Assembly (NCBI GenBank): GCA_017995215.1
Contig: JAGOJH010000004.1
Span: 1 to 60,037, forward strand
Reading direction: 5' to 3'
From: Thermoclostridium sp.
GTDB lineage: Bacteria > Bacillota > Clostridia > DSM-8532
Length of the DNA: 60,037 nt
Shown: positions 12,868-20,857 of the stretch, piece by piece
How positions within the stretch are numbered: position 1 is the first letter of the stretch
How the letters are laid out: every line of letters starts with the position of its first letter
Made by a program: the position numbers and the translations under genes
Notes under the pieces: model-generated
The model's input: the letters and a program-made list of their open reading frames with translations, nothing else
Told to the model about the DNA's origin: nothing
Database searches by the model: none

Positions 12868-13380
12868 TTACCGGTTATCGAACTGACGGTTCTTCCATTC
12901 CCGGATCACCTGATTTACCGCATCTTCCAGTGTGTTCGTCTCCCGAACATGGATATCGCAGGCCTTGATATACAGCGGATATCTTTCATTGAATAAATCC
13001 ATCAGTTTGTTTTTTCCATCCTTCAGCAAAGGCCTGTGATCGGTGTCTATATCTGCCAGGATGTCCTCAACCGGTCGATCCAAAAAAAATAGAATTCCCC
13101 GTTCCTTTAGGGCAGCGATGTTCTCTGATCTTTTAATAACCCCTCCGCCGGTTGCAATTACTGCACCGTCCACCTTGCTGACTTCTTTCAGGGCTTTGGT
13201 TTCAATGTCCCGGAAATATTCCTCTCCTTTTTCAAACAAGGCCGGAATGCTGCTCCATTTGCTTTCAATATAATGATCCAAATCGATAAATCGTAGCTTT
13301 AATCGTTCCGCTACGATTTTTCCCACTGTAGTTTTTCCGCACCCCATCATGCCAATCAGTACAATGTTTCTCACTTTCAT
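12868..13380 (-). CDS. aroK: Shikimate kinase
   Basis: It phosphorylates shikimate at O3, the fifth step of chorismate synthesis. The 170 residues are the family length. The P-loop is GMMGCGKTT at residues 10-18, shikimate-binding residues appear in DLDHYIE and near RDIETKAL, the Walker-B-like TGGG is at about residue 78, and the lid segment holds DHRPLL. The start codon overlaps the aroE stop by four bases (ATGA), so translation is coupled. It is the last gene of the aromatic operon. Confidence 0.97.
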   Translation of the reverse strand: MKVRNIVLIGMMGCGKTTVGKIVAERLKLRFIDLDHYIESKWSSIPALFEKGEEYFRDIETKALKEVSKVDGAVIATGGGVIKRSENIAALKERGILFFLDRPVEDILADIDTDHRPLLKDGKNKLMDLFNERYPLYIKACDIHVRETNTLEDAVNQVIREWKNRQFDNR

Positions 13381-14183
13381 CTCAAACCTTCATCCATTCT
13401 TCTCAGGATTGCATCAACCATATCCAAACCATAACCTTCCTCATTCCAGATCTCTTGAGCCTTAACCGCCTGAGCAACCAGCATGTAAAGGCCGTTAACA
13501 CTCGGAATCCCCATTCTATCGGCCGTTTTCATCAGTTCGGTTTGGCCGGGGTTATAAATCAAATCAAACAAAAAGCCCGTCCCCTTCAATTGATCGGATG
13601 TGATCGGCGAAACACCGGGCTTGGGAGCCATGCCGACCGGTGTTGTGTTAATGACCAAATGAAACGGGTGATAGTTTTCAATCTCATCATAAGAGATTGC
13701 TTGTGCGGAGGGGAATTTTTCCTGTGTTGCAGCAGGGTTTCTGCATGCGATGAATAGACTTATGATGCCCGAATCTAAAAGGTATGCTGCGACTGCTTTT
13801 GCTGCGCCTCCGCTTCCGAGGATCAGTGCTTTGATGTTGCTGAGCTGAATCCTGTTTTTCCGAAGGGTGTAATCAATGCCGAAGTAATCGGTATTAAAGC
13901 CTTTTAGCGAGCCTTTCAGCAGGATTGTGTTCACGGCTCCGATTTTTGCGGCTTCAGGAGAAATCTGTTTCATGAACGGAATAACCTCCGACTTGTACGG
14001 TATGGTCACATTCAAGCCCCTAAAGCCTTGCTGCAGTGAACAGTTCAGGAATGCCTGCAGTTCATGCTTTTGCAGCTCAAAAAGCTTGTATTCACCCGTT
14101 ATCCCGGTAATTTCAAAGAAGGCCCTGTGGATTTGCGGCGAGTAGCTGTGGGATAGCTTTTCTCCAATCAAACCGTATTGCAT
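13377..14183 (-). CDS. aroE: Shikimate dehydrogenase
   Basis: It reduces 3-dehydroshikimate to shikimate with NADPH. It has 268 residues from the ATG at 14183, which follows GGAGG by five bases and gives the standard N-terminus YGLIGEKLSHSYSPQIH (shikimate-binding SxS). The catalytic Lys is in NVTIPYKSEVIPF, the substrate residues in GAVNTI and FNTDYFG, and the nucleotide loop is LGSGGAAKAV. An upstream ATG (14285) would add 34 residues without a ribosome site. It is preceded by a 189-base untranslated stretch after pheA and overlaps aroK at its end. Confidence 0.97.
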   Translation of the reverse strand: MQYGLIGEKLSHSYSPQIHRAFFEITGITGEYKLFELQKHELQAFLNCSLQQGFRGLNVTIPYKSEVIPFMKQISPEAAKIGAVNTILLKGSLKGFNTDYFGIDYTLRKNRIQLSNIKALILGSGGAAKAVAAYLLDSGIISLFIACRNPAATQEKFPSAQAISYDEIENYHPFHLVINTTPVGMAPKPGVSPITSDQLKGTGFLFDLIYNPGQTELMKTADRMGIPSVNGLYMLVAQAVKAQEIWNEEGYGLDMVDAILRRMDEGLR

Positions 14184-14372
14184 CGTTTCCTCCGAAATAG
14201 CTTTATCAGCGTGAAAGTTTCTTTTTCGTATCGAATGACCATAAGATCTTGTTCCCGAAGCACCGGCTGTCAGCATGAATGTCAATTTTTCATCCTAATC
14301 GTAACCGGTTATCCATTGAAAAAGCTTATCGAGTACAAACCTTTCTTCACTTTACGAAGAACAGCAATGAAC

Positions 14373-15518
14373 CTAACAACCGGATGGCTCGAAAGCCCTG
14401 TAGTTACCCAAAACCCGGAAATCATGGGCCGTAGCCTTCAAGCATTCCAACAGTTCCCTGATCCTTGGCTCCATGAGGTTTCCTTCAAAATCAAAGAAAA
14501 ACAAATACTCCCAGGGTTTGCCGATGACAGGCCTGGACTCTATTTTCATCAGGTTCAGGCTGCGTTCATTGAACAGCCTGAGGATGGTGTACAATGCCCC
14601 CGGTTTATGGGCGATGTCCATCACGATACTGATCTTGTTACAGCTTTCATGCACAACGGGCTCCCTTTCAATGCTGATAAAACGGGTGTAATTGTTTTGA
14701 TTGTAGTGGATATCTGGAACCAGAATCTCCAGCCCATAAAGACGCGCGCTGCTTTCAGAGGCTACGGCTGCTTTTGTTTTGTCGCCCAGCCTGCTGACAA
14801 GCTCGGCACTGTTGGCTGTACTGTTATAGGCTACTTGTTCCCAGGGATACTTTTTCAGAAAATGGCTGCTCTGCTCCAGCCCCTGCTGATGAGAATACAC
14901 GGTATTAATATCTTCCAGCTTCGTTCCCGGTACTACCAGTAAATGGTGGCAGATTCTGGAGATGTGTTCACCAGTGATATATACCTGATTATCTCGTATC
15001 AGGTCCATGACTGCGGTAATAATTCCAGTGGATGAATTCTCAACAGGCAGCATGCCTATATCAATTTTATGGTTTAACAGATCATACACGACTTCTTCAA
15101 AGGTGTTGCAGGATTTTTTAACAATATCGCTGCCAAAATGCAAAACTGCAGCTTCTTCGCTATAAGAACCCGAGGAACCATAATGGCCGATAACCGTGCC
15201 GGGCTGAAGTGTTCTTTCAGCCTGCGTGCTAACGTGTTTATGGTCTTTTGTCAGCTGAGCAAGCTGGTACTGTCTCGAGAGTGTCATCAAATCATCCATG
15301 AAGAATCGTAAATAGGTTTCAAGCTCTGGATTGTGCAAATGCGATACAGCCCTGGCGATGACATCCTTTTCGCGGTTGGAATCCAGTACTTCCATGTTGT
15401 GCTGCTTTTTATATGCCGCAACCTCTGATACGGTTTCCATTCTCTCCTCAAACAGCTTTACCAGCTTTTCATCGATTGCATTGATTTTGATTCTGATTTC
15501 ATTCAGGTTTAATTCCAT
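14373..15518 (-). CDS. pheA: Bifunctional chorismate mutase / prephenate dehydratase
   Basis: It converts chorismate to prephenate and on to phenylpyruvate, the branch committed to phenylalanine. Three parts are seen in 381 residues: an AroQ-type mutase (about 1-90, with the catalytic Arg and Lys in LNEIRIKINAIDEKLVKLFEERM and VAAYKK), a dehydratase (about 110-290, with PVENSSTG and the conserved NYTRF motif), and a C-terminal ACT domain (about 300-375) that retains GALY and ESRP, the usual phenylalanine-feedback motifs. The ATG at 15518 follows AAGGAG. Position inside the operon fits the Phe-rich leader found upstream of aroF. Confidence 0.96.
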   Translation of the reverse strand: MELNLNEIRIKINAIDEKLVKLFEERMETVSEVAAYKKQHNMEVLDSNREKDVIARAVSHLHNPELETYLRFFMDDLMTLSRQYQLAQLTKDHKHVSTQAERTLQPGTVIGHYGSSGSYSEEAAVLHFGSDIVKKSCNTFEEVVYDLLNHKIDIGMLPVENSSTGIITAVMDLIRDNQVYITGEHISRICHHLLVVPGTKLEDINTVYSHQQGLEQSSHFLKKYPWEQVAYNSTANSAELVSRLGDKTKAAVASESSARLYGLEILVPDIHYNQNNYTRFISIEREPVVHESCNKISIVMDIAHKPGALYTILRLFNERSLNLMKIESRPVIGKPWEYLFFFDFEGNLMEPRIRELLECLKATAHDFRVLGNYRAFEPSGC

Positions 15519-15669
15519 TCAACCGTTCTCCTTATCCTGAATTGGACTTTTTTTTATTAACTCATGACACTTTATTTTCTCACGAGGTGTAGATGGGCTT
15601 CCACCCGACATAAGCTCAGGTATCCAACTATAGCTGAACGCGTTCACTTAGTTTCTTTGATTCACTGTG

Positions 15670-16881
15670 TTACCTGTACTTCTTATCTTCCAGCAGCAAA
15701 TCCATTACAACCAGGGCTGCTGCCGCATCCATAACAGGGACAGCCCTTACAGCCACGCAAGGATCATGCCTTCCATGAATACTGTATTCTCTGGCCTGCA
15801 TGGTTTTCATGTCTAACGCCTGCTGTGGTTTAGAGATGGAGGGTGTAGGCCTGAAGGCAGTACGAAAAACCACTGGCATCCCGTTTGTAATACCACCATT
15901 AATTCCGCCTGTGTTGTTGGTCTTTGTTGGGTAGAAACATAACTCGGGACAAGAGGTTTGGGGCTTCATTTGCTTACTGTTTGGTTTGATTTCATCAGAA
16001 CCTGGCCTGTGAGTATAACACTCTGCCTGTGGCTTGTCGGAATTTTGCGCAGGAACCTGATGTAAATCACTGAAATTGTCGTTGGCTTCGCTGCCGCGCA
16101 CGGAGCCAAAGCCGAACCCTGCGCCAAACTCGATTCCCTTCGTTGCCGGAATGGAAAATACAAAGGCGGCAAGTCTGGACTCCACCGATTGAAATATGGG
16201 TGAGCCCAACCCCGCAGGAAGATTTACAATGGCTGTTTCCAGAACCCCTCCCACCGAATCCTGATCCATTCTGGCATCATCTATTTCTTTCATCATTTTT
16301 TGAACTGCATCCGGGTTGATTGTAGGGAACCGCATTCCACGAAAAGCTTTCAGCTGCTGTGCTTGAATATTTACCGGATCCATCCTGGTATCTTCGATGC
16401 TGCCAATGCGCAGCAAATGGGTCCCAATTGTAACCCCCAGCGGTTCCAGATATTGCGATGCAATTGCACCTGCGAACACGATTGGCGCAGTCAGTCTTCC
16501 TGAAAAATGGCCGCCGCCGCGGTGGTCATTAAACCCGTTATATCGAATCCTTCCGGTATAATCCGCGTGTCCGGGACGCATGATGTCCTTCAGTTCATCA
16601 TAATCCTTTGAATGCTTATCGTTGTTGCGGATTATTCCGCATAACGGTGTGCCTGTAGTATAGCCGTTCAGAAAGCCGCTGACAATTTCGACCGCATCCC
16701 CTTCATTTCGTGGTGTGGAATAGTTGTCCTGCCCTGGCCTTCTACGCTCCATTTCCACATGGATTTTTTCAGTGTCCAGCAGAATGCCCGCAGGCAGGCC
16801 GTCGATCACAACCCCAATGGCTGCCCCATGTGACTGACCAAAGATCGAAATTCGGATATTTTCTCCCCACATGCTACTCAC
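15670..16881 (-). CDS. aroC: Chorismate synthase with an enlarged loop
   Basis: It makes chorismate from EPSP with reduced FMN. It has 403 residues, starting at a GTG (16881) eight bases after GGGAGG and overlapping the aroA stop. Family blocks are all present: FGQSHGAAIGVVIDGLPAG, RRRPGQ, SGRLTAP, GSEANDNF, TNNTGGINGGITNGMPV and the C-terminal RHDPCVAVRAVPV. Between GSEANDNF and TNNTGG (about 15925-16071) there are roughly 45 hydrophilic residues with three cysteines where about 15-20 are usual. The frame stays open and all core motifs follow, so the enzyme is probably functional. The earlier ATG at 17007 lies within aroA. Confidence 0.95.
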   Translation of the reverse strand: MSSMWGENIRISIFGQSHGAAIGVVIDGLPAGILLDTEKIHVEMERRRPGQDNYSTPRNEGDAVEIVSGFLNGYTTGTPLCGIIRNNDKHSKDYDELKDIMRPGHADYTGRIRYNGFNDHRGGGHFSGRLTAPIVFAGAIASQYLEPLGVTIGTHLLRIGSIEDTRMDPVNIQAQQLKAFRGMRFPTINPDAVQKMMKEIDDARMDQDSVGGVLETAIVNLPAGLGSPIFQSVESRLAAFVFSIPATKGIEFGAGFGFGSVRGSEANDNFSDLHQVPAQNSDKPQAECYTHRPGSDEIKPNSKQMKPQTSCPELCFYPTKTNNTGGINGGITNGMPVVFRTAFRPTPSISKPQQALDMKTMQAREYSIHGRHDPCVAVRAVPVMDAAAALVVMDLLLEDKKYR

Positions 16882-18160
16882 AGGCTTTCCCTCCCAACCG
16901 ATGATAATGCTCCCAAAACGAGGGATATGATTTGTTGACGGCCTGGGAGCCTTCAATCGTAGTGTTCTTTTCACAAGTAGCTGCTGCAATGGCTGATGCC
17001 ATGACAATGCGGTGATCGTTCCAGCCGTATACCCTTCCGCCCATCAGCTTTTGTTTTCCATCAATTGAAAGGCTGTCTTCATACTCGGTTATTTTTGCAC
17101 CCATGGCCTTCAATTCTGTGGTGATTGCCTTCAAACGGTCGCATTCTTTGATTCGCAGCCTTGCTGCATTCATGATTTCCGTATTCCCATCAGCGACGCT
17201 TCCCAGAATTGCCAGCACTGGAACCAGATCCGGACATTGGGAAACATCCATTTGAATCCCGTTTAGCCGGCTTTCCTGTGCAACCAGCAAGTTTTCCTTC
17301 CATGACAGGTTGGCCCCCATTTGCTGTAAAAAGGCTTCTATTATCTTATCGCCCTGAAGGGAGTCCGGGTTTAGCCCATCAATTGATACCGGGCCGGAGA
17401 ATACCCCGGCTGCCAACCAAAAGGCTGCCTGGGACCAGTCCCCCTCCACCTGATAATGCTGAGGTTTATATTTTTGCCAGCCAGGAATGAGAAATTTGTT
17501 CTCCGCCCGTTCAAATTCAATGCGAATGCCAAACATTTTTTGCATTTGGATCGTCATCTCGATATAACCGATGGATTCAAGGGGCGTTGTGAGCATGATC
17601 ACCGAGTCACCCGGCAACAGCGGCAAGGCAAGCAGCAAACCCGAAATAAACTGGGAGCTCACATCGCCTCTGATGCTGAAGCATCCTGGTTTTATCGCCC
17701 CATTCAAGGTTAAAGGCAGCATTCCGGACTGTGTTTGATATTGAATTTTCTGTGTATCGAATATTTCATAAAAAACACCAAAGGGTCTTTCGGACAGCTT
17801 TCCTTCTCCGGTTATCACAACCTCGTCTGCGGTCAGCCGTGTAATCGGTATGATAAAACGGGCAGTGGTTCCGGACTCACCGCAATTAATCAGCTTCCTT
17901 TTGATTTTAACTGTTCCCTTGCCGCGAATGACCAATATCTTTCGGCCTGGAATTGTACTTTCAAGGATATCCATATCTCCACCAAGGGCTTCGACAGCAC
18001 GACAGGTAGCGATGATATCATCGGAAAGCTCCACATTGTCGATCCGGCTCTCTCCTTCAGACAGGAATGCACAGCTTATTGCCCGGTGTGCCATACTTTT
18101 GGAAGGTGGAATATGAATGGTTCCCGATAACCGTGATGGTCTAATGGTTAAGTTTTTCAT
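16874..18160 (-). CDS. aroA: 3-phosphoshikimate 1-carboxyvinyltransferase (EPSP synthase)
   Basis: It joins phosphoenolpyruvate to shikimate-3-phosphate. It has 428 residues from the ATG at 18160, seven bases after GAGGAG and inside the last 20 bases of aroB, so translation is coupled. The phosphoshikimate-binding PPSKSMAHRAI, the GESGTTARFI loop, the SSQFISGLLLALPLL motif and RIKECDRL near the C-terminus identify it. The NCGESGTTARF block differs from the NAGTA form of the glyphosate-sensitive class I enzymes, so it is closer to class II. It precedes aroC by overlap. Confidence 0.96.
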   Translation of the reverse strand: MKNLTIRPSRLSGTIHIPPSKSMAHRAISCAFLSEGESRIDNVELSDDIIATCRAVEALGGDMDILESTIPGRKILVIRGKGTVKIKRKLINCGESGTTARFIIPITRLTADEVVITGEGKLSERPFGVFYEIFDTQKIQYQTQSGMLPLTLNGAIKPGCFSIRGDVSSQFISGLLLALPLLPGDSVIMLTTPLESIGYIEMTIQMQKMFGIRIEFERAENKFLIPGWQKYKPQHYQVEGDWSQAAFWLAAGVFSGPVSIDGLNPDSLQGDKIIEAFLQQMGANLSWKENLLVAQESRLNGIQMDVSQCPDLVPVLAILGSVADGNTEIMNAARLRIKECDRLKAITTELKAMGAKITEYEDSLSIDGKQKLMGGRVYGWNDHRIVMASAIAAATCEKNTTIEGSQAVNKSYPSFWEHYHRLGGKACE

Positions 18161-19220
18161 CGATCCACTCCTCAATCCTCTGTTTTGGAAACTTTTCCAG
18201 AACAGCATCACCAATATCCCTGATCAGCACCAGGTACAGGTCATTGGTCTGTGCTTTTTTATCCAGTAAGACCGTATTCTTAATTTTTTCGGGTTCAACC
18301 TGCGGCCAATCTGCTGGTAAGTGATATCTTGTTACCAATGCGCGGATTTTTTGTACAACGTCTTCATGACAATACCCAAGCATACTGGAAAGCTCGGCTA
18401 CAAACACCATGCCCATGGCAACAGCCTCGCCATGGGTATATTTTTCATAATGAAAATACTTTTCAAGGGCATGACCAAAGGTGTGCCCAAAATTCAGGAG
18501 CATCCGTAAACCGACTTCCCGTTCATCCTGCTGTACAACCTGCCTTTTTATGTCGCAGTTTCGGCAGATGAGCTCTTCTGCATGCTCCATGAAGCCTTTT
18601 CGGTCTCCCAGTTGTTCCAGCAAGCTAAACATCTCCTTGTCGCGAATACAGCCATGCTTGATCACTTCGGCCATTCCATCTGCAAAACGCCTGTCGGGCA
18701 AAGTGTTCAGCAGCAAGGGATCTATCAATACCATCTCGGGATGATAGAAGGCTCCGACAAGGTTCTTGCCAACAGGCAGATTCACTGCAACCTTGCCGCC
18801 AATACTGGAATCCACCATGGCCAGCAGAGAGGTTGGTATTTGCACAAACCCTGTGCCGCGAAGCCAGGTGGATGCCGCAAACCCAGTCATATCGCCGGTT
18901 ACTCCGCCCCCCAGGGCTACCACAACATCTTTTCGGGTGATTTCTGCCTGGCTGAAGGCCTCGTACATCTTTAAAAGCTGTTCATGGCTTTTACTTGCTT
19001 CTCCTGCCGGATAGGCATGCAGTCCTGCCTGGATGTTCAGTTTCTTAAGCTGTTTAGCAAGAACCGACCCATAAACAGAGGCGAGGTTGCTGTCGGTAAC
19101 AATAAAAACCTTCCTTCCGGGAAAGAAGCTCTGAATAACCTCACCTGCCATTTGAAACAGGTTGTTTTCAATGAGTATGGGGTATGTTTTATGTTCCAGT
19201 TTCACGGATAATTCTCTCAT
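18141..19220 (-). CDS. aroB: 3-dehydroquinate synthase
   Basis: This NAD- and metal-dependent enzyme cyclises DAHP to 3-dehydroquinate. It has 359 residues from the ATG at 19220, seven bases after GGAG; the earlier ATG at 19268 has no ribosome site. The motifs are complete: GGGVTGDMTGFAASTWLRG, QIPTSLLAMVDSSIGGKVAVNLPVGKN, the metal ligands in EVIKHG and LNFGHTFGHALE, and HGEAVAMGM. It follows aroF after 85 bases and overlaps aroA. Confidence 0.97.
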   Translation of the reverse strand: MRELSVKLEHKTYPILIENNLFQMAGEVIQSFFPGRKVFIVTDSNLASVYGSVLAKQLKKLNIQAGLHAYPAGEASKSHEQLLKMYEAFSQAEITRKDVVVALGGGVTGDMTGFAASTWLRGTGFVQIPTSLLAMVDSSIGGKVAVNLPVGKNLVGAFYHPEMVLIDPLLLNTLPDRRFADGMAEVIKHGCIRDKEMFSLLEQLGDRKGFMEHAEELICRNCDIKRQVVQQDEREVGLRMLLNFGHTFGHALEKYFHYEKYTHGEAVAMGMVFVAELSSMLGYCHEDVVQKIRALVTRYHLPADWPQVEPEKIKNTVLLDKKAQTNDLYLVLIRDIGDAVLEKFPKQRIEEWIDEKLNH

Positions 19221-19305
19221 GTTCACGCTCCATTTCCGAAGCTGGCTTACCAGCTGCGGCTGATTCAAGCTTTTCGCAAATTCCCTGTGCTAAAACCCGA
19301 TGTGA

Positions 19306-20325
19306 TTATCCTTCAAGCTTTTTCCCCTCAATTTCTATCAGCTTTCTCAGCTTGACCATTAAATGCTGAAACTGATCCGGGGTGATGGATTGCTGTCCAT
19401 CACACAAAGCACGGGATGGGTCGTTGTGCACTTCAATAATCACTCCGTCGGCCCCGGCAACCACCGCTGCCTTTGACATGGTTTCCACCATCCAGGCCTT
19501 CCCTGTGGCATGGCTTGGATCGACGATCACCGGTAAGTGGCTGAGCTTTTTGATGGCTGGAATTGCGCTGATATCCAGGGTGTTTCGGGTGAAGGTCTCA
19601 AAGGTGCGGATGCCTCTTTCACACAGGATGACCTGTTCATTTCCTTCACTGAGAATATATTCGGCACTCATCAGCCATTCCTCAATGGTTGCGGCAAGGC
19701 CTCGTTTCAAAAGGATGGGCTTTCTGATTTTCCCCAATTCTTTTAGCAGCACAAAGTTCTGCATGTTTCTTGCACCCACCTGGATGATATCCACATCCTC
19801 GGCAAAGCGATCCACCATGTCCACTGACATGATTTCAGAAACAATGGGCAGACCGGTTTTTTCACGGGCATGCTTCAGATATTCCAGCCCTTCCAGACCA
19901 AGCCCCTGGAATGCGTAGGGTGAGGACCTGGGTTTGTATGCACCACCACGCAGGAAGGTTGCCCCGTTTTCTTTCACAGCCTTTGCAATGCCTTCTATCT
20001 GGTCTTCGCTTTCCACAGAGCAGGGGCCTGTCATGACACAGAAATGGCCTTCACCGATTTTTCTTCCTGCTACCTCAATAATCGTGTCATCGGGCTTGAA
20101 CATTTTGTTCGCCTTCTTAAACGGCTCTTGTACCCGCAGAATGTTCGCAACAATTTCATTCGAAGCGATGGTGTATTTATTCAGGTTTGTCGTATCTCCG
20201 ATTAAACCCAGGATGGAGGTTTCAGTTCCTTCCGTGATTTGAACCTTCACACCCATAGACTCGATCTGGCGGATCAGTTCATTTCTTTTTTCAATGGATA
20301 CATTTGGTTTCAGTACAACTACCAT
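19306..20325 (-). CDS. aroF: 3-deoxy-7-phosphoheptulonate synthase, type I-beta with N-terminal regulatory domain
   Basis: It condenses erythrose-4-phosphate with phosphoenolpyruvate, the entry step of the pathway. The 339 residues include a small ferredoxin-like regulatory domain (about 1-70), as in Thermotoga DAHP synthase, and the barrel with [39 protein letters not shown] and VDPSHATG. The metal-ligand residues of the family lie in these blocks. The ATG at 20325 is ten bases after AAAGGAG. It is the first structural gene of the aromatic operon; expression is likely governed by the Phe/Tyr-rich leader and terminator upstream, and enzyme activity by end products through the N-terminal domain. 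Confidence 0.96.
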
Positions 20326-20453: not shown

Positions 20454-20489
20454 CCGGGTAAAAATAAAGAGGCTCACAATCGAGCCTCT
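20454..20489 (-). terminator. Attenuator terminator in the aromatic operon leader
   Basis: Arms AGAGGCTC and GAGCCTCT (20468-20489) enclose a six-base loop and are followed on the minus strand by TTTATTTTT. It lies 20 bases after the leader-peptide stop and about 130 bases before aroF. TTACCCGG directly after it (20454-20461) is complementary to CCGGGTAA inside the leader peptide gene (20546-20553). Confidence 0.8.
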
Positions 20490-20508
20490 GTTCATTCCTG
20501 TGTTGCTA

Positions 20509-20631
20509 TTACCCCATTGATATCTGCTTTTTTCCACATATGAAATTACCCGGTCTAAAGTACGTAAAGTAAAAAGCCAGGGTAAAAAAGTAAAAAAAAG
20601 CGAAGGCAAAAATGCTGCCGAGGATATCCAT
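20509..20631 (-). CDS. Phe/Tyr-rich leader peptide of the aromatic operon
   Basis: This 40-codon frame starts at an ATG (20631) nine bases after AGGA of a GGAGGA site and ends 20 bases before the terminator stem. Its residues 8-25 contain nine Phe and three Tyr in 18 positions, including FAFAFFYFF (8-16) and AFYFTYF (19-25). The rest is ordinary (RPGNFICGKKQISMG). The density of Phe/Tyr codons, the start of translation right after the predicted transcript start, and the terminator before a Phe-pathway operon match a ribosome-stalling attenuator like E. coli pheL. I found no fully convincing antiterminator by eye. Confidence 0.8.
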   Translation of the reverse strand: MDILGSIFAFAFFYFFTLAFYFTYFRPGNFICGKKQISMG

Positions 20632-20660
20632 CAATTAGGTTCCTCCAATGGTTTTTTTAT

Positions 20661-20690
20661 ATTATATGCCCATTTGCAGCATACTGTCAA
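20661..20690 (-). promoter_or_regulatory. Sigma-A promoter of the aromatic operon
   Basis: Consensus boxes TTGACA (20685-20690) and TATAAT (20661-20666) are 18 bases apart. The transcript would start near 20655, only about 25 bases before the leader-peptide start codon. Confidence 0.85.
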
Positions 20691-20819
20691 TGATTTGATT
20701 CGAGGAGCATGGAAAAATTCGGGCAATAAACCTTCGGTCAAATACAGGAGAAGTGCAGTGATGGAATCAGACATTCATTTTTCCAGGAAACAAAAAGAAC
20801 TCAGGTAAGGTTTCTATAG

Positions 20820-20857
20820 CCTGTCCCTGAGCTCCAATTTTACTGGAACCTGTCCCC
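20820..20857. repeat. Pair of CCTGTCCC direct repeats around a small hairpin
   Basis: CCTGTCCC occurs at 20820-20827 and 20849-20856, flanking TCCA and TGGA arms. GGGACAGG motifs like this are frequent in dispersed REP-like elements of other bacteria. There is no T tract, so it is not an evident lysC terminator. Confidence 0.4.

Follow-up and report, generated by a model that had tools for sequence, protein, structure and literature searches.

The window analysed here, a stretch of 60,037 nucleotides of Thermoclostridium sp., carries on its minus strand seven colinear genes running from aroF to aroK. The first of them, aroF (19306..20325), encodes DAHP synthase (NF006421, 501 bits; TIGR01361, 398 bits) and is followed by aroB, aroA, aroC, pheA (chorismate mutase-prephenate dehydratase), aroE and aroK (12868..19268), assigned by NCBIfam. 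No strong terminator was found on that strand in the gaps between aroF and aroK, and, judged solely by the gene layout, all seven genes would be controlled by the leader that precedes aroF. Further upstream, just 3′ of the aspartate kinase gene, an inverted repeat CTCAGG...CCTGAG followed by TTCTTTTTG occupies 20800-20840 of the minus strand and is possibly the terminator of the aspartate kinase gene itself, setting it apart from the aro promoter. The same genome contains a second DAHP synthase gene (G000:C54:8069-9076, locus L002; 49% identical), upstream of which no such leader was seen, the best frame there having only 6 aromatic codons in 16.

All elements of the leader lie on the minus strand. 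Its promoter (20661..20690) consists of TTGACA (20690-20685) and TATAAT (20666-20661) separated by 18 nt, matches the consensus at 12 of 12 positions and has both hexamers identical in 9/9 aligned relatives from the same family. A Shine-Dalgarno sequence GGAGG (20646-20642) stands 10 nt ahead of the ATG of a 40-codon frame, MDILGSIFAFAFFYFFTLAFYFTYFRPGNFICGKKQISMG (20509..20631, from ATG at 20631 to TAA at 20509), while an in-frame TTG at 20634, immediately 5′ of this ATG, offers an alternative start giving 41 codons. Phenylalanine occupies residues 8, 10, 12, 13, 15, 16, 20, 22 and 25 of the encoded peptide and tyrosine residues 14, 21 and 24, thus 12 of the 18 codons within residues 8-25 specify Phe (nine) or Tyr (three), and the peptide contains no Trp; when this 370-nt region was shuffled with dinucleotides preserved, only one of 3000 randomised versions had as many aromatic codons in an 18-codon stretch of a frame. 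Between this frame and aroF sits an intrinsic terminator, the hairpin of which (20468..20489; stem AGAGGCTC/GAGCCTCT, in RNA AGAGGCUC-GAUUGU-GAGCCUCU) is followed by a T-rich tail read from the sequence (20460..20467), and aroF begins 135 nt past this tail. The whole leader folds at z -4.3. The first-pass annotation had described a consensus promoter, a 40-codon frame with a good ribosome site and its nine Phe and three Tyr codons, and a strong terminator ahead of aroF; each was recovered to the base on re-examination. In Firmicutes the control of amino acid operons is usually ascribed to T-boxes or TRAP. The window leader gave no match in Rfam, either to the T-box or to any other known RNA, and the peptide none in Pfam or NCBIfam. 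Scanned for the T-box family RF00230, the window yielded nothing that reached the gathering score, relaxing the filters for the leader brought up no match either, and no T-box lies near aroF in the window or at 40 other loci scanned; elsewhere in the same genome 20 T-box matches occur, 15 of them above the family cut-off.

Occurrence of similar leaders was assessed at aroF loci sampled from named genomes, from the window's family and from an even sample of its class. Frames in which 10 or more of 16 codons are aromatic were found at 48 of 180 loci, in none of 900 shuffles and in none of 180 reverse complements, and lowering the threshold to at least 8 in 16 gave 90/180 loci against 1.6% of shuffles and 2.2% of reverse complements. 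Among 82 distinct leaders, an automatic search placed a terminator after the frame in 78, at a median of 33.5 nt past the stop codon, and 43 contain Trp codons (TGG), so that, even if the window's own peptide lacks Trp, the family probably senses all three aromatic products of the pathway. Among named genomes, clostridial MAGs come closest to the window, and within its family the genera g1, g3, g4 and g6 retain promoter, frame, aromatic block and terminator (AGAGGCTCGATTGTGAGCCTCT, with small changes). The leader is missing in the sister genera g2 and g7 of the same family (L101-L116), where aroF closely follows an aspartate kinase gene; the second DAHP synthase of these genera is encoded within a reading frame of roughly 525-580 amino acids and is possibly a fusion. 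The whole set spans many clostridial families and some Negativicutes, its carriers including Clostridium chromiireducens, C. cibarium, C. gallinarum, C. nigeriense and a strain labelled C. difficile (L041), as well as Pelosinus, Phascolarctobacterium, Alkalibacter, Monoglobus, Epulopiscium and an Acholeplasmataceae MAG. With frame, aromatic bias and terminator kept by relatives, the proposal of the first-pass annotation that the operon is attenuated through Phe or Tyr survives. At another aroF copy, in Clostridium puniceum (L066), a short aromatic-rich frame, LYFYRTLSFYQYKFYFSS, was observed upstream with no terminator recognised.

Conservation within the window's family extends to RNA structure. 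Codons 11-14 (Ala-Phe-Phe-Tyr) of the frame form the 5′ arm of a helix designated H1 (GCUUUUUUUUAC, 20590..20601), and the downstream codons Cys-Gly-Lys-Lys its 3′ arm (GUGGAAAAAAGC, 20526..20537), so that Phe codons are engaged with Lys codons in a covarying 12-pair helix with 97.5% of cells paired across the family. Double changes affect three pairs of H1 and six pairs if the near-invariant, likewise covarying, terminator hairpin is counted with it; the joint covariation score was reached by 0 of 500 shuffles, and slid partners were only 45-66% paired. Covarying stems of this sort were what the first-pass annotation had suggested looking for among relatives. In L097 the 3′ arm of H1 is retained downstream of the stop codon of its shortened frame. 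A second, long-range helix, H0, appears in the MFE fold of the window's leader, where CCATTG (20651-20646), belonging to region 1 (CCATTGGAGG, 20642..20651) and overlapping the leader Shine-Dalgarno sequence, is base-paired to CAATGG within the last codons of the frame; in the sister genus g3 (L095/L098) the role of H0 could fall to a different complementary pair, CCTATAA:TTATAGG.

Inside the aromatic block about 50 of the 82 distinct leaders encode the motif Ser/Gly/Thr-x-Gly/Ala-aromatic. In the block an invariant AGC codon is followed by NNN-GGY (for example, in L026, L126 and L144), sometimes in tandem (S-W-G-...-S-A-G). The serine of Ser-x-Gly-aromatic-aromatic is encoded by AGC in 40 of 40 cases, whereas elsewhere in the same leaders AGC accounts for 79 of 186 Ser codons; the glycine codon has C or T as its third base (GGC or GGT) in 40 of 41. 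A DNA pattern derived from this leader core, TWYTTTAGCNNNGGYTATTT, has 22 matches in 243 genomes (the reversed pattern, 4), of which 20 share the strand of aroF and precede it by no more than 300 nt, one is located ahead of aroB in an aro operon (L213) and one, taken for a chance occurrence, falls inside a transporter gene (L231). At L213 (reverse strand, near position 1500) and G235 the leader precedes aroB of an apparent aro operon with aroF about 7 kb downstream, indicating that the leader goes with the operon rather than with a single gene. A simple hairpin considered for the AGC-NNN-GGY core is doubtful, the codon table giving ACC in the window's genus, which disrupts the middle pair.

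Recurrence of this motif might be read as the signature of an arrest peptide, in which nascent S-x-G-aromatic-aromatic would stall the ribosome on free Phe or Tyr in a TnaC-like manner instead of reporting tRNA charging. The constraint, however, is imposed on nucleotides (the invariant AGC and the C/T-ending Gly codon), and many leaders devoid of the motif keep dense aromatic codons, terminator and complementarity to it, as fits codon counting. Read-through provoked by a free amino acid is moreover expected for catabolic rather than biosynthetic genes, TnaC, where the ribosome stalls in response to tryptophan, being such a catabolic case; we consider arrest by the peptide improbable. The same nucleotide conservation, together with the U-richness of the block and the persistence of UAUGUAAAAAAA even past the stop codon in L097, would suit an RNA element mediating RNA polymerase pausing or protein binding, with Phe and Tyr codons as a mere by-product of U-richness. 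Aromatic richness is nevertheless specific to the frame (9.8 aromatic codons per 16 vs 3.0 and 3.4 in the other two frames) and is not recreated by shuffling, TGG codons are present in more than half of the leaders, and the insertion within the aromatic block of the family alignment comprises 3 nt, all of which makes this reading very improbable.

The first-pass annotation had found no classical antiterminator. Comparison across relatives revealed one, in that the end of the frame (region 2; CAATGGGGT, 20511..20519 in the window, which may serve as the 3′ arm of H0 or as the 5′ arm of a candidate antiterminator) is complementary to the 5′ arm and part of the loop of the terminator (region 3; GCUCGAUUG, 20477..20485), whose position relative to the hairpin in the window is the same as in the wider family; the window's own version is weak. 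Examples of matched regions are UAAAGCCCG:CGGGCUUU (L042), CCUUUGAGCCUG:CAGGUUCAAAGG (L036) and AAAUGAGU:ACUCAUUU (L023), and in L168 complementarity extends over 20-plus nt. For 78 loci, matched pairs have a mean energy of -12.9 kcal/mol against -8.4 kcal/mol for permuted ones (z -15.5), a contrast confounded by base composition shared within each genome, and for this reason region 2 of each locus was also shuffled on its own. In this stricter comparison (80 loci) the mean z is -2.09 ± 0.20, whereas a neighbouring upstream control segment gives -0.08, and complementarity is significant (p ≤ 0.05) at 42 of 80 loci with 4 expected by chance. L096, L098 and L099 of the window's family are among those with significant complementarity. 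For the window itself, the predicted duplex of region 2 with GCUC-G-AUUG (20485-20477) is worth only -8.8 kcal/mol and does not exceed chance expectation (z -0.27, p 0.34). The alternative contact named in the first-pass annotation, CCGGGTAA:TTACCCGG, exists as a complementary pair and was rejected: it is not conserved, the second copy being absent from the closest relative, L091 (TTTTTTCCCTGAAA), and in the window that copy falls past the T-tract.

At significant loci the centre of the region 2 arm precedes the last base of the stop codon by a median of 12.5 nt, so a terminating ribosome would be predicted from the sequence to cover this arm, an outcome that is partly a consequence of the location of region 2. 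The effect of ribosome position was modelled by masked folding, in which the ribosome-covered stretch is masked and the transcript is folded before the terminator 3′ arm is made. With the ribosome on the aromatic codons the region 2-region 3 helix forms in many relatives (mean best probability 0.66), and with the ribosome at the stop codon its median probability is near 0; in the window it is about 0 at every ribosome position. In many relatives the helix also forms without any ribosome, which leaves the off state in the absence of translation unaccounted for in those leaders. Equilibrium folding of clostridial leaders gave no thermodynamic switch of the pheL type: with a stalled ribosome the terminator wins at 73 of 78 loci, only 5/78 falling below a terminator probability of 0.5, while the E. 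coli pheL control in the same test drops from 0.93 to 0.04 upon stalling. Being weaker than the terminator at equilibrium, the clostridial antiterminators must act kinetically, and blockade of terminator nucleation is assumed here. A terminator favoured at equilibrium in nearly all leaders would also be compatible with a constitutive terminator and a leader that sets aroF translation or mRNA stability; the conserved complementarity, however, aims at the terminator hairpin, and in the window aroF starts well beyond its tail, which renders control at the level of translation hardly credible. A small membrane protein with a function of its own as the product of the frame, with the terminator merely ending its transcript and aroF driven from elsewhere, deserves almost no credence. 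The peptide is hydrophobic, and a second role is conceivable; it varies, however, in length and C-terminus among relatives (shortened in L093 and L097), has no match in Pfam or NCBIfam and is bound to aro operons in 21 of 22 pattern matches.

We thus regard the leader, with considerable confidence, as a ribosome-mediated transcription attenuator of the shikimate/phenylalanine operon sensing the supply of Phe and Tyr and, in many relatives, also of Trp. Sequence comparison demonstrates the frame with its bias towards aromatic codons, the terminator and H1, and among relatives also the complementarity between regions 2 and 3; stalling, folding order, read-through and operon-wide effect are our proposals as to how these parts would work together. 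Transcription would begin just past 20661, and a ribosome would enter the 40-codon frame. When charged Phe- and Tyr-tRNA are ample, it would reach the stop codon and mask region 2, allowing the terminator (20489-20468) to form and leaving aroF to aroK off. If charged Phe-tRNA or Tyr-tRNA is scarce, the ribosome would stall in codons 8-25 and hold H1 and H0 open, and the freed region 2 would engage the loop side of the nascent terminator and hold up its formation long enough for polymerase to pass.

The nearest published relative of the window leader is the uORFC-13-1 motif, published from no more than 24 sequences, all of them from Acholeplasma or unknown organisms, and proposed to sense incorporation of Phe (PMC8632094). 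As far as the published text permits comparison, both share location upstream of aroF, promoter, RBS, start codon, a Phe-coding U-run and a terminator directly downstream (PMC8632094), and the Acholeplasmataceae MAG locus of our set (L059) has a leader of the same kind with the core AGC GTT GGT TAT TTT. The present set differs in covering many clostridial families plus some Negativicutes, in having Tyr and often Trp codons and in the region 2-region 3 antiterminator, and the window falls outside Acholeplasma and the unassigned taxa. With pheL-pheA of E. coli the leaders have in common a Phe-rich peptide and a terminator whose 5′ arm can pair instead with RNA further upstream; the clostridial peptides, in contrast, are longer, at about 40 codons, draw on Phe, Tyr and Trp together and precede a gene of the common pathway, and their antiterminators, most of which do not win at equilibrium as that of E. 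coli does, target the loop and the upper part of the 5′ arm. Within Firmicutes, His leader-peptide attenuators of the Bacillus cereus group, Peptostreptococcaceae and Erysipelotrichales (PMC9413887; PMC2965389) likewise combine leader peptide, attenuator or terminator and antiterminator in place of T-boxes, yet rely on histidine codons, serve his genes and occur in few genomes. The ilv operons of S. aureus and Listeria are also amino acid synthesis operons of Firmicutes under leader-peptide attenuation (PMC5794164; PMC5864092), responding, however, to branched-chain amino acids and belonging to other taxa. T-box riboswitches too sense tRNA charging ahead of amino acid genes, whereas the aro leader would do so through the codons of a translated frame. 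No report on aro leader peptides in Clostridia was found in the open-licence literature. Tentatively, and with less than even confidence, the clostridial leaders may constitute a separate class, in which a counter of mixed Phe, Tyr and Trp codons is built around a nucleotide-conserved UUUAGC-NNN-GGY-UAUUU with invariant AGC, acting as a structural or polymerase-pausing element, and is combined with an antiterminator that blocks the terminator loop kinetically instead of winning thermodynamically, Acholeplasma uORFC-13-1 then being one narrow branch.

Presence of similar leaders before about half of the clostridial genes examined makes a supply-sensing switch very probable, and the comparison with known systems points to a mechanism familiar in kind yet new in form, being unusually widespread and of mixed codons, such a switch for aro genes having so far been described only in one small group of relatives (Acholeplasma). 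Entry to aromatic synthesis appears to be governed by a leader-peptide attenuator at roughly half of the sampled clostridial aroF loci, including those of human-gut genera, of Clostridium species and of a strain labelled C. difficile. This would put a whole regulatory family on the map, provide dozens of natural variants for studying attenuators in which the terminator is the stronger of the two competing structures, and account for how Phe, Tyr and Trp could all be read at the common first step of the pathway.
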